From Planoprotostelium fungivorum (lineage: Eukaryota > Evosea > Variosea > Cavosteliida > Cavosteliaceae), in NCBI GenBank assembly GCA_003024175.1, contig MDYQ01000014.1:124001-188000 (forward strand): a stretch of DNA of 64,000 bases, in the 5' to 3' direction. The notes under the pieces are model-generated. The model was not told the DNA's origin, searched no databases, and saw only the letters and a list, made by a program, of their open reading frames with translations. The translations under genes and the position numbers were made by a program. Shown one piece after another: positions 32,633-38,772 of the stretch. The stretch's first letter is position 1. Each line of letters starts with the position of its first letter.

Positions 32633-33051
32633 GGTATTGCCTTCTGCCGTATGAATGTTTTCTGTTCGTGTTCGCTCTCAATCACCATGACAACACCTTT
32701 AGTCGTAATTTCTTCCTCAAAGGAAGCATAACCCAGAGACGAACCGTACTCGATCAGCATCAGAACCAGGGACAGCAGCTTTACGCTCTTTATAGAAGGT
32801 GCTCACCCTCGTGTGATCGAAGTGTGGACGAGAAGCTGTTCAAAATCGAGTGGAGGGAGGAGGTCACAATGGAGATCTACTCAAGTCAGTAGAGATCTAT
32901 ACCGTAAGGTGCTCCTTCCACTGACGGACGAACACATCTGACACGGAGACAGAGTGAATAAGCCACAACCCACACAACATCTCGAGCTCAATTGAGAGGT
33001 TCAGATGCACGTGTGATGGCTCAAAGACAAAAGGAGAAGGAAAGGAGAGGA
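32633..33051. other. Intergenic interval between VTT and kinesin-fimbrin genes
   Basis: About 420 bp containing the VTT promoter and the kinesin-fimbrin 3' end. No further gene is supported. Confidence 0.4.
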
Positions 33052-36000
33052 TTACGTGTATTGAGCGGGTGCATTGCTGACGGTCATCAGCTCGGCGACG
33101 AGGTAGAGGATCTTCTTCTGTTGGACTTGGACGATGTCCTCCCAGGTGAGGAAGATGTGACATCCCAACTTTCTCGCCACGGAGATGACATACTTTGTGT
33201 TCTTCGTGTGCCCATCTTCTGGAAACAAGAGATCAGATGATGCAGTGCAGACGGTGCACACCGTTGTCTGCCTTCGAGACGAGATTGTAATTGACGGAAC
33301 CTGGATGGATGGCGTCTAAGAGGTCGATGAGGAAGAGACCATCTTTCATCGTGGCATCTCTGAATCCTTTGATGGACTTTGTCTTTCCGGCCTTCATATC
33401 GTTAGACATGTCGTGCGCATGCGAACGAGGTCACCTTCTTAACTTTCTCATTGACCCATCTGACCATGTCTGCCTCCGTAATCTCTTTACCTCCAAATTG
33501 TTGTAGTTTTCGGAGGAAATGGTATTGCATGGCTTGACTCAAGAAAGCTGATGTCCTTTAGACATCGTGATGATGATGGCAAAGATGAAACGACGTTCTC
33601 ACCCAAAGCAAACTTTGTGCTCTTGTCTACAAAGTCTTTTCCTGCCACACCTACGAGAGAAAAGTTGAGCTCACGTCCTGATGTCTTTCAGATAGTCGAC
33701 GCGGCATGAGACGACTGTTGGTGTCTCACCCAAGTCCACGGCGTAGTTGCAGTTCTCGATCTTCTTATAGATGCCAACTGGCTTCTGGTTGACCTTCTTC
33801 CAATTGACCAGAGGCTTTCCGTATACCTTGTCTAACACCTGTAACAGGAGAATCCCGTCTTCAATCTTGGTGGATAGATGTGGTATGGGATAGCCCAAGT
33901 CCAAACTGTTGACCCACACGCGAATGGCTGCAATCGTCATCAGCAACATGGACGTCGTGGTGGTGGACGATGATGACGATGAAGCGGATGGAATCTACCT
34001 CTCTCCTCTTGCAGCTCGCCATCTTTGCTTTCCATGAGTTCTAACAACTCTTCCGATTTCTCCAAGCCAGATGCAGATGAAGAGTTGGCGTAGTCCTCTA
34101 TGTCGGGATATTGCAGGTACAAATTGGTGATGAACATCTGGTTCTTCTGTGGATTGCCCTGTCCAATCCTTCAGTATCCAGATCTCATGATGTTCGTGAC
34201 GATCAGGTGACGGCAGACGGTGATGGTGATGACAAGACTCACAGACACAATGTCCTCTACGGTGATGTACTTTCTGCAGCCCAGTTTGTCGGCGTTGGAC
34301 AGCATGATCTGTGCCCTCTTGGTCGTGTTCGCCTCGCCGAGGCCTTCCAACCCACATTGAGAGGCGATCTGGTTCAAAACCAAGATGTATTTGACAGAGT
34401 CCTTCGTTCATAATCAGACACCATCACATCACGTTCCATCACCTTCACGTCTTCGCTAAAGTTGGTGAACGGGTTCTCGTGTCCGGCGTTGAACAGATGG
34501 TAGTTCATCCATCGTATCAAGAGTTGTTCTGGTGTGAGGTTGATAAACTCCTCTAGCTCTTCCCCGTCGAGTCGGAGTTTGAGAAGAGACCTCTGTTCCT
34601 TCACATTCACTTTGTTCAATTGAGAGACTCTCTCCAATTCTGTGACGACGAGTAACAATTTCTTCTCCTGTCCATCATCAACATCGCGATCGGATGACTT
34701 GTGATTGGGTGGACGATGTGACTCTCTCACGTCTCCTCCTACGATATCCTCTATCGTGACGTCTTGTATATCGCAACCAAGATACATGGCAGAATTAAGA
34801 CACAAGTTGATGTTCTCGACGACTTCTTCTGGTGTCTGAGGTTCCGTGTTGACGACTCTCTCGTCCAATATACCGGGTGCCACGCGATTCACAAACTTAC
34901 TGTCGTCTCATCAGACTCTACATCTGGACAATAGAATGTGATGTGATGCAGTGTGATGATATCTCACCATAAGATGACTCCATCTGAAGCAGCGTCTTTC
35001 ACGTCGATTTCAGAGAGGGTCTTCACCACGTGTGCATCGTTGCGAAGAGCCGTCTTCAGATAATCTGCCATCGTCGCCGACGTCAATTCCCTCAGAGGTG
35101 CAGCTTGGTTGGCCTCCAAAGTCTCTGCCTTCACTCCTGCCTTCACTGCCACATCTGAAAGCACTCAGCTTCATCGTCACCTTCACTCGTCTCACTCTTC
35201 AACTTTTTGTTCTCGTTCGTGAGCTCCGCGATCTACCTCCCCGTCACCCTCCATCGTGATGATCATCATCGCATCTTCTCACCTGTCGCTCCAAGGCGGA
35301 CATCTTATCTGCCTCCACCGATATCATCATCTGGACTTCAGTGCAGAGGGCATCCATCTCTCGACTCTTCTGCTCCAACTGCCATCACATCACGTGACAT
35401 CCTGGCGCATCACCCCACCTGGTATCGCAAAATCTCGTTCTCCGAGCGAAGAGATTCCTGCTCCTTTGACGTGTTGTTGATGATATCTGCCGCGGAACCT
35501 CTTCGAGACCCGGCGTCTGTCGGTTTTGGTAGAGGTGGCAGCCCGATTCTCGCTCTCAGATTGTCCACCTGTCCTTCTGTCACTCTCCCTCTCCTCTCCT
35601 TCAATCACCTCTGCCTCCAACTGCTGGATGCGGTCGTCCGACTTTTGTTTCTGCTTCTTCATGAGGTTCATCCTGAATTGCAGCATTCCATTCTTGGCAA
35701 GGGAAGCCCAGCGTGACTCCTCGAAGGCTCGCGAGAGTCTCTGCTTCTCGTCCCAAGTCTGTTTCTTTGCGTATTCCAAGTCTGTGATCTTCATGTTCAG
35801 TTCGCGAAGTTGTTCTGGGTTGTTTGATCCGGCTGGCAGCGTCAGATGAAGAGGTGATGGGGGTGGTTCTCACCGTTTCCAAGCTGCTCTTTCAGTCTCT
35901 CGATCTCGTCTCTCAGTTCTCTCATGATGGCCGAGGGGTTCGTCTCGTTCTTCTTTGATTTGTTCTGGATATTCTTCGCTCGGTTGGCATACTGCAGCGT

Positions 36001-37387
36001 ATTCAACGTCTCCTCGAAATTTCGATCTGTTCCACGTCAGTTCTGACGTATTGCACGGCGTGTGGCTCCACCTGCGGGGGAGAGAGTCGCGATCATGACC
36101 GTGATGGTGTTACCGCCCAAAGACTCTTGCAGGAGTCTCGTCAATTTAGAAGAGCGGAATGGAATGTGACCCTTCTTCTTCTTCGGATCACCTAATGCGT
36201 TGATGACGTTGCCGAGAGCAGACAAACTCTTGTTGATGGCGCTGGCTTCCTTCAGCACGTTACCCTCTGCTTCTGTCTTGGCAACCCTCTCGGATCCTGG
36301 GAAGGGGGTGAGTTGCGGGGAAATGACATCGTTCCTGGGATTCACCGGCGAGGTCGACTAGGTTGATCTTGGCTACGAGACCAGAACCACCTTCTTCAGC
36401 TGTTTTGCTCTTGTCTCTCTGCTCTAGTTTGACGATGAAGACACTGTGCGATCTGCAATGCGATGAGACCCAGACGCCCATGATGAGAGATGTCTGAAGT
36501 CACCTGGAGCTTCTGTCGTTCATCTTCGTGGAGGCCACGTGACGTACAGAGTTACCGTCGGACATTCTTCTGTCGACTTCATCGGAAGATGTGGCCACCA
36601 GCTCGATGAGATCTTCAACGTAGACACCCAATTTGGGATGCTCTCTCACCTGCAAAGCTTGAGCAAGATGAAAAACAGATGAAGAGGCTCACTTTCAATC
36701 CCGTCTTGTGATCGCTTTTTGGGTTGAGAAGGTCGAAGATGGTTTCGTTATAAAGTTCTAAGAAGGAGACTGAAACTAGAAAGATCTTATCGTCGGATTG
36801 ATTCTCGATACGGGCGAAAAGGTCTTTGTTCATCTGGTAATGATGTCAGATGTAGTGATTAAGAGGATGAGACGTACTCGAGGAATGATACCCAGATCAT
36901 CTCCAGAACCCATGATACAGTGAGTCTTTCCTGTTCGGAACATCAGGTGAAGTCGAATCATTGTCCAATGGATCCGCACCCGTGCCCGTCTGTCCGTAGG
37001 CGAAGATGGTTCCATTGTAACCTTGAAATGCTTTGTCCAATATAGGCGATCCTAGATCCTCATATACCTTTGTTCTCCGTCAATCGACACCTTCTACATC
37101 GTCATGTATGAGGTCACCTGCTGTTGCGATATATCGTGTGGATAATTGTGATCAAAATGAAACTTGTAAGAAGGTGCAGAGCTGTATGGGTTCGGATCTT
37201 TCAAAACCACGCTCTCTTCAGAGAGGTCGATGATGCTCTGTGAGCCCAACAGTAGCTCTGTCTTTGACATGGGGCGAGACCTCACGGCCACCTGCGAATC
37301 TCTTCAGGCATCGTCGAGAGGAACGTGAGATGAATGATTGAATCGAGAGACAACCTTGACAGCTACGTCTGCCGCTGCTGCGTCCAT
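33052..37387 (-). CDS. Kinesin motor fused to a four-CH-domain fimbrin module
   Basis: An N-terminal kinesin motor starts [11 protein letters not shown] + [16 protein letters not shown]. Its marks are P-loop GQTGTG + KTHCIMG, NDRSSRSHSVF (switch I), NLVDLAGE (switch II), [17 protein letters not shown] and [15 protein letters not shown] at the neck. A coiled coil follows (35.3-35.95 kb). A phase-compatible 41 nt intron then joins [12 protein letters not shown] to [17 protein letters not shown] and runs into [14 protein letters not shown], the first helix of a fimbrin CH1. Four CH domains then match plastin/fimbrin throughout: [67 protein letters not shown] with [31 protein letters not shown] with [18 protein letters not shown]. 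If that intron were kept, a stop would end the kinesin at 35.16 kb and a separate fimbrin would have to start at Met 35072. No EF-hands precede CH1. About twenty introns. Confidence 0.7.
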
Positions 37388-37429
37388 CTTTATCGTCTGT
37401 TCTGGTGTTGGCTGATCACTCAGCTTGCA

Positions 37430-37754
37430 TGCAGCCTGCAAAATGTTGCAATTGTAGATTTTGACCTATTATACCGGCCCAGAACAGGTTCCCGCGGAAC
37501 TGAGCATGTTTCAACGCCAACACTCGTTCAGACCATCTGTGACCTCCTTCAGAGTGAACCCATGCACCCAACCATCACATGTAAATTCGCCGCATAATCT
37601 CCTCCGAAATCACATCACGTCCCCACACGTGTTCGCGTCCATCCATCCATTCCATCTATTTCGTCTCCTCTTATCCACACACAAAGACCTGCCTCACGAT
37701 GATGGTGCATCAGACCTGGACCAAAGCATTGTGCTCGCGACGTCTCAGCTCTAG
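37430..37754 (+). CDS. Possible small two-exon gene, start not found
   Basis: A segment reading STPTLVQTICDLLQSEPMHP joins in phase through a GTAAAT...AAAG intron (about 37580-37686) to YLPHDDGASDLDQSIVLATS and a TAG at 37752-37754. The helix-like amphipathic first part and acidic second part look protein-like, but there is no good ATG and no family. Weak support. Confidence 0.25.
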
Positions 37755-37941: not shown

Positions 37942-38772
37942 ATGTTCCAGAAGGTGAGAGAGATTGAGAGGAGAAGAGAATATACATACATATCGAGGAT
38001 CAACTCGTTGCATCTGATGCAAATGATTGTCCAATGTGATAGAATGTGACCTGAGATGTGTTGTATAGGAAGTTGTTATCGATGGCCGCGCCCACATGCT
38101 GGGACGCCTTGCATCCATTCTCGCCAAGGAGCTCCTCAGCGGCCAACGTGTTACCGTTGTCCGTGCCGAAGAGATCCTCATCTCCGGCTCTCGTGAGTTT
38201 TTGACCTTCCATCCTCTATATTCCACCCCCTCCCATCCATACATTCCATCTTTCATCTCCTTTCGATATGTTTTCTCACTATCATCACATCACCCCCCAC
38301 CCTCTCATCTTCTTCAGTTGTTCGCAACAAGCTCCAATACCACGACTTTTTGAGAAAGAGAACTGCCACCAACCACTCTCGCGGTCCCTTCCATCTCCGC
38401 TCGCCCTCCAAGATGCTGTGGAGAGCCATCCGTGGCATGCTGCCCCACAAGACCCCCCGTGGAGCTGAGGCTCTCGCCAGACTTCGCGTCTTCGAGGGTA
38501 TCCCATCCGCCCTGACCTCCACCAAGAGAGTTGTTGTCCCCGACGCCCTCAAGGTCACCCGCATCAAGCCCGGAAGAAGAGTCACCGTTCTCGGTAGACT
38601 GTCCACCGAGGTCGGATGGAAGTTCGCCCCCGTCGTCAAGAAGCTCGAAGAGAACAGAAAGCTCGGATCTGCTGCCTACTACCAGAGAAAGAAGGCCCTA
38701 CTCAGACTGAGAGCCAAGGCTGTTGCCAACCACACTGCTGAGAACGCTCAGTTGGCCAAGCTTGGATTTTAA
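37942..38772 (+). CDS. RPL13A: 60S ribosomal protein L13a (uL13)
   Basis: Cytosolic large-subunit protein. Exon 1 encodes only MFQK; exon 2 [20 protein letters not shown]; exon 3 [20 protein letters not shown], then [20 protein letters not shown] (the highly conserved uL13 signature M.PHKT.RG..AL) and a basic C-terminus ending [11 protein letters not shown]. Codon use is strongly biased to C-ending codons, as expected for a highly expressed gene. A CTTTTATTTCATTTTATTTG element follows the stop at 38824-38843 and may be part of the 3' processing signal. Confidence 0.97.

Follow-up and report, generated by a model that had tools for sequence, protein, structure and literature searches.

We examined a locus on the minus strand of a 64,000-nucleotide (nt) stretch of the Planoprotostelium fungivorum genome (GenBank assembly GCA_003024175.1, contig MDYQ01000014.1, positions 124,001 to 188,000), hereafter the window, in whose coordinates all positions are given unless another locus is named. 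The original prediction, made from the letters of the window, had placed a kinesin motor, a coiled coil and four calponin homology (CH) domains between 33052 and 37387, and splicing and Pfam bear this out: a kinesin motor, a coil and a fimbrin-like four-CH core are encoded there, with the ATG at 37387 and the stop codon ending at 33052. Splicing by hand removes 22 introns of 40-84 nt, the junction of the two halves included, and gives a protein of 1064 residues, and our gene model (described below) gives 23 introns and 1049 codons with 97.6% identity to the hand model; a few internal splice sites differ between the two, and the junction agrees. The features are collected in the table.

Features of the kinesin-fimbrin locus in window coordinates
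Feature	Position	Strand	Basis or remark
Whole gene: kinesin motor, coiled coil, four CH domains	33052..37387	-	1064 codons, 22 introns, hand model
Kinesin motor domain, residues 15-342, intact motifs	35970..37282	-	Pfam, structure-sequence matches
Neck and coiled-coil region, residues 343-543	35196..35967	-	exons of hand model; coil by eye; register scores
Coil intron, weakest joining evidence	35379..35418	-	40 nt by hand; gene model 35370-35418, in-frame acceptor
Joining intron, 41 nt, GTGAGA..TTTCAG, phase 1	35155..35195	-	hand model and gene model
Linker, 27 open codons, joining intron to first Met of CH half	35072..35152	-	coding log-likelihood ratio +8.3
Fimbrin-like core CH1-CH4, without EF-hands, CH1 and CH3 diverged	33052..35071	-	Pfam, alignments

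The motor domain is matched by Pfam PF00225 over profile positions 1-327 of 327 (E 9.5e-112), and its motifs are intact (P-loop GQTGTGKT, switch I NDRSSRSH, switch II DLAGSE and neck YANRAKNI), as judged by the motif patterns of kinesin motors. KIF13B and KIF1A were the top solved-kinesin matches to the motor and neck (best 60 of 190 matches). By its predicted sequence the motor belongs to the kinesin superfamily and is kinesin-3-like. It shares with KIF1A and KIF13B the N-terminal position of the motor and the closest motor and neck sequence, but differs from them in that Pfam scans at E 0.001 found no FHA domain after the motor and no PH domain in the protein, and in that the tail is a fimbrin core. 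The coiled-coil region that follows is broken by a Pro/Gly-containing stretch at about residues 455-480, as read by eye. Another kinesin of the same genome (contig C30, locus L078), 42% identical to this one, has by eye an apparent kinesin-3 neck and FHA region.

In the C-terminal half, Pfam finds four CH stretches (E 1.1e-65), and the near-complete four-CH core is matched by the solved fimbrins 1pxy (6.5e-98), which we take to be plant (Arabidopsis) fimbrin, 7r94 (plastin-3, 2.3e-97) and 1rt8 (2.8e-89), presumably S. pombe fimbrin; an alignment to plastin-3 spans nearly the whole CH core of this protein. The predicted protein thus has the four CH domains that define a fimbrin, arranged as two putative actin-binding pairs and in the same order as in plastin-3 and the Arabidopsis and S. 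pombe fimbrins. It differs from these in that the kinesin motor and coil replace the EF-hand headpiece, and in that CH1 and CH3 are diverged, having lost in the core alignment the WQ seen in the C181 core (another locus of this genome, described below) and in other cores. In the excerpted text of PMC10533516, fimbrins are described as two EF-hand motifs followed by four CH domains, of which the four-CH part is strictly conserved. Here, no EF-hand was detected by Pfam in the whole protein at E 0.001 or in the stretch from the coil to CH1 at E 1, in line with the earlier observation that the EF-hands are missing, and CH1 is preceded by the coil and the linker instead.

Evidence for a single gene across the coil and the junction

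For the question of one gene or two, we used a two-strand gene model with a 3-periodic coding model, matrices for splice sites, starts and stops, and intron lengths, self-trained on 216 kb consisting of the window and loci of its own genome. The full model decodes 33052-37387 as one gene containing the joining intron 35195-35155, and a held-out model, re-estimated for four rounds without 32900-37600 (72,105 coding nt, 700 introns), again returns one gene with the joining intron, likewise under looser priors. A gene boundary forced at each hand-model intron in turn cost between 0.2 nats (first intron) and 21.1 nats, and the joining intron, at 17.0 nats, was the fourth highest of the 22 under both sets of priors.

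The joining intron has the borders AGA/GTGAGA ... TTTCAG/A and is in phase; among the 700 predicted introns its donor ranks at percentile 45 and its acceptor at percentile 81, its 41 nt favor intron over coding by 4.7 nats, and it outscored the other in-frame candidates, 22 in all with a length of 30 nt or more. A 26-nt intron with the same acceptor was set aside, being shorter than any intron of the hand model. For a chance test, we generated random sequences from the dinucleotides of the window and looked for a stop-free, in-frame intron of equal quality, and the joining intron was equalled in 1/2000 and 0/2000 sequences in two runs. The claim that a phase-compatible 41-nt intron joins the coil to the CH exon is supported by the gene model, the percentiles and the chance tests, and the count of open codons that came with it is correct: exactly 27 codons without a Met separate the acceptor from the Met at 35071. 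These 81 nt score +8.3 nats for coding versus intergenic sequence in the reading frame and -2.3 and -39.0 nats in the other two frames; the linker outscores 743 of 743 stop-free intergenic windows and stands at the 58th percentile among 795 exon windows. The openness of the linker by itself is weak evidence; its coding score and the chance tests are strong evidence.

The spacing points the same way. Among the 37 same-strand neighbor pairs, as defined by the same gene model, gaps range from 55 to 1864 nt; for 31 of the 37 the fusion cost is 10 nats or higher, with gaps of no less than 113 nt, and the six weak pairs (1.2-6.0 nats) hold all four of the gaps of 81 nt or less. No confidently separated pair has as little room between its genes as would be available here, where a split at 35143/35071 would leave 71 nt and one within the coil at most 82 nt.

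Two tandem genes meeting at the junction would consist of a 559-residue kinesin, which stops at 35143, and a fimbrin-like gene with the Met at 35071 as its start. In favor of this arrangement, the unspliced kinesin runs 17 codons past KLK to a stop at 35145-35143, and the short acidic tail that results is plausible; the Met at 35071, for its part, has an A at -3 and a G at +4. However, forcing this stop and this start costs 17.1 nats (at least 17 in all), and the resulting path skips the coil exon 35232-35196; the linker looks coding, the 41 nt look like an intron, an intron this good hardly arises by chance, and the gap is just 71 nt. The Met itself aligns to plastin-3 residue 129, which presumably falls within the first CH helix; a start there would be possible but poor, as it would cut this helix. 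We consider this arrangement very improbable, and slightly more improbable still is a locus with two products, in which retention of the 41-nt intron would give the 559-residue kinesin and its removal the fusion. Retention would indeed yield a short kinesin, as 41 is not a multiple of 3, and the reading stays open for those 17 codons, but the 41 nt score as intron and not as coding.

The main competitor is a tandem pair split within the coil, where the kinesin would end in ...ILRYQVG at the stop 35410 and a coil-plus-fimbrin gene would start at a Met of the next exon (35327 in the model path, 35357 possible), retaining the joining intron and the linker. It is the cheapest two-gene path between the motor and CH1: in 34980-35460 the cheapest forced split costs 9.7 nats, with precisely this stop and a CH gene from 35327, and on a second grid a split close to intron 35282-35233 cost 9.5 nats (7.7 under looser priors). 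The coil introns also score worse than the junction in both the chance and the acceptor tests, 35282-35233 being equalled in 17/2000 and 35418-35379 in 65/2000 random sequences, with both acceptors at about the 2nd percentile of the 700 predicted introns (an alternative acceptor for the intron at 35418 reaches the 22nd); the weakest link therefore lies inside the coil, not at the junction. Against this split, one gene is still favored under looser priors, the 21 nt of codons ahead of the first Met in that exon score +3.6 nats for coding, the two genes would stand no more than 82 nt apart, closer than any tandem pair separated by at least 10 nats, and coil sequence stands on both sides of the break. 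The last point carries limited weight for the first coil exon, since the register test is weak there: the second and third coil exons share their best register, whereas the best register of the first is the second best of the second. On balance we regard a split in the coil as unlikely, moderately disfavored by its 9.5-9.7 nats.

Several properties of the analysis, besides the poor coil introns, weigh against a single gene. Training of the splice matrices began with 21 introns of this very locus as seed (the junction left out), and the held-out model was started from the full model. By our estimate, the prior penalty on an additional gene boundary accounts for much of the 9.5-9.7-nat margin. 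The certainty of the model is uneven: intron 34242-34159, which lies inside homologous CH sequence, has a split cost of only 2.9 nats, and the first intron only 0.2 nats; because the former is internal to the CH core, a low split cost alone does not show a gene boundary. The linker test is partly circular because its windows come from predictions of the same model. An early gene model with mis-set penalties, since replaced, broke the sequence into hundreds of tiny genes; it split the locus at about 34137/34170 and at 36833 and retained the coil-to-CH1 intron. Finally, the single transcript is a prediction from genomic DNA. Taking both sides together, the gene model, the coding score of the linker, the chance tests of the joining intron and the spacing support the proposal that kinesin and fimbrin form one gene, and we consider it probable that the locus encodes a single kinesin-fimbrin motor-crosslinker.

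An assembly artefact was also weighed and set aside: the gene is internal to a contig of 207 kb and, among the matches listed, near-identical matches to both halves occur only on contig C81. In the same genome (G000), the contig pairs C5/C120, C17/C38 and C35/C309 carry same-score kinesin and CH matches on both members, which suggests uncollapsed assembly duplicates.

A putative actin-microtubule crosslinker compared with known kinesins

N-terminal kinesin motors walk toward microtubule plus ends, coils dimerise, and the CH pairs of fimbrin each bind actin. On this background, the single predicted protein would most likely act as a plus-end-directed actin-microtubule crosslinker or transporter. 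Its kinesin-3-like motor would walk toward the plus ends of microtubules, its coil would pair two chains, and CH1-CH2 and CH3-CH4 would bind and possibly bundle actin filaments, so that a dimer could place up to four actin-binding units on one motor and either tether an actin bundle to a microtubule or carry it along. As it has no EF-hand headpiece, we propose that its actin binding would not be under the calcium control of fimbrin. The divergence of CH1 and CH3 counts against the bundling part of this proposal, since one or both sites could be weakened and bundling is not assured.

Kinesins that link actin and microtubules are already known, namely plant KCH and Dictyostelium Kif5; the novelty here would lie in joining a complete fimbrin core to an N-terminal motor. 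According to the excerpted text of PMC4451249 and PMC1434745, KCH kinesins bind and crosslink actin and microtubules and need their CH domain for actin binding. Their layout differs, as had been pointed out: KCH, a kinesin-14, has one N-terminal CH domain, an internal motor and minus-end movement, whereas the predicted protein has by Pfam an N-terminal motor and two C-terminal CH pairs. Actin transport along microtubules by KCH has been proposed, and never demonstrated in vitro according to the passages of a 2015 review (PMC4451249). Kif5 is likewise a kinesin, with a C-terminal tail that is a direct actin binder and forms filament bundles in vitro; it differs in being classed as a kinesin-1 (both from the excerpted text of PMC7140473), and its actin-binding tail is probably unrelated, because the word "calponin" is absent from the main text of that article.

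The original prediction also stated that no described protein was known to have an N-terminal motor followed by two fimbrin pairs, and we found no description of a kinesin fused to a fimbrin core in the open-licence PMC literature, among the titles and abstract openings of the matches listed; one scan of viral contigs gave no orthologue. In a survey of 1624 kinesins, 105 domain architectures were counted, most of them confined to one organism (PMC2867816, as excerpted), and the term "CH domain" is absent from its main text. As most kinesin architectures in that excerpt are organism-specific, a lineage-specific architecture is in itself not unusual.

Fimbrin-like cores elsewhere in the genome

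The genome was searched twice at the protein level, each time with a different fimbrin core and with scoring of the best candidates, and three further genes decoded with a fimbrin-like core emerged among the best-scoring candidates (contigs C181, C52 and C225). On C181 (L079:2209-7065, minus strand, G000:C181), the core lies behind a WD40 propeller, with 3 CH stretches and WD40 repeats by Pfam (best 25 of 31 families), and one predicted chain comprises a long low-complexity N-terminus, the propeller and the CH core. On C52 (L080:1794-7467, minus strand, G000:C52), four CH domains (Pfam) follow a stretch of about 890 residues that by eye is largely coiled coil, and on C225 (L081:3647-6716, plus strand, G000:C225), a P/Q-rich stretch precedes four CH domains (Pfam), with the P/Q-rich stretch and CH1 in one open exon. 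The C52 core is the closest to that of the window (38% identity versus 34% for C181 and C225), and in the decoded gene of this closest paralogue, too, a coil comes before CH1. Contigs C153 and C12 carry further CH pairs of the fimbrin type. The former (L055:4-2261, minus strand, G000:C153) has a fimbrin-like CH1-CH2 and then a long coiled coil in place of CH3-CH4; the latter (L056:1036-3048, minus strand, G000:C12) has a P/Q-rich N-terminus and a fimbrin-type CH1 in one open exon, with a partial core in the model.

No EF-hand was found in the scanned parts of C181, C52 and C225, the scan covering neither the C181 sequence upstream of the propeller nor the middle of the C52 coil, and an EF-hand fimbrin elsewhere in the genome could be missed. 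The absence of EF-hands may thus not be special to the kinesin-fimbrin gene. Fimbrin cores behind other N-termini seem usual in this genome, which makes the kinesin fusion more credible, although the models come from the same predictor. Whether the fusion is the first of a kinesin class with a complete fimbrin-core tail, calcium-independent and plus-end-directed, that bundles actin and moves the bundles on microtubules, in a lineage that recast fimbrin cores as C-terminal modules behind varied N-termini (motor, WD40, coil and P/Q-rich), is in our judgment an evenly balanced question. Kinesin-driven actin transport could be tested directly on a natural protein that has an N-terminal kinesin motor and both actin-binding pairs of fimbrin, and such a protein would also be an example of a fimbrin core put to new use as a tail, with no calcium headpiece.

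Two minor observations concern other genes. On contig C30 (L028:1483-3255, plus strand, G000:C30), a predicted protein has by eye a tandem CH pair, a filamin-like repeat and a thioredoxin/SH3BGR-like C-terminus. In the window, the opposite-strand neighbor at 38096-38772 (plus strand) resembles, by eye, ribosomal protein L13a/uL13.
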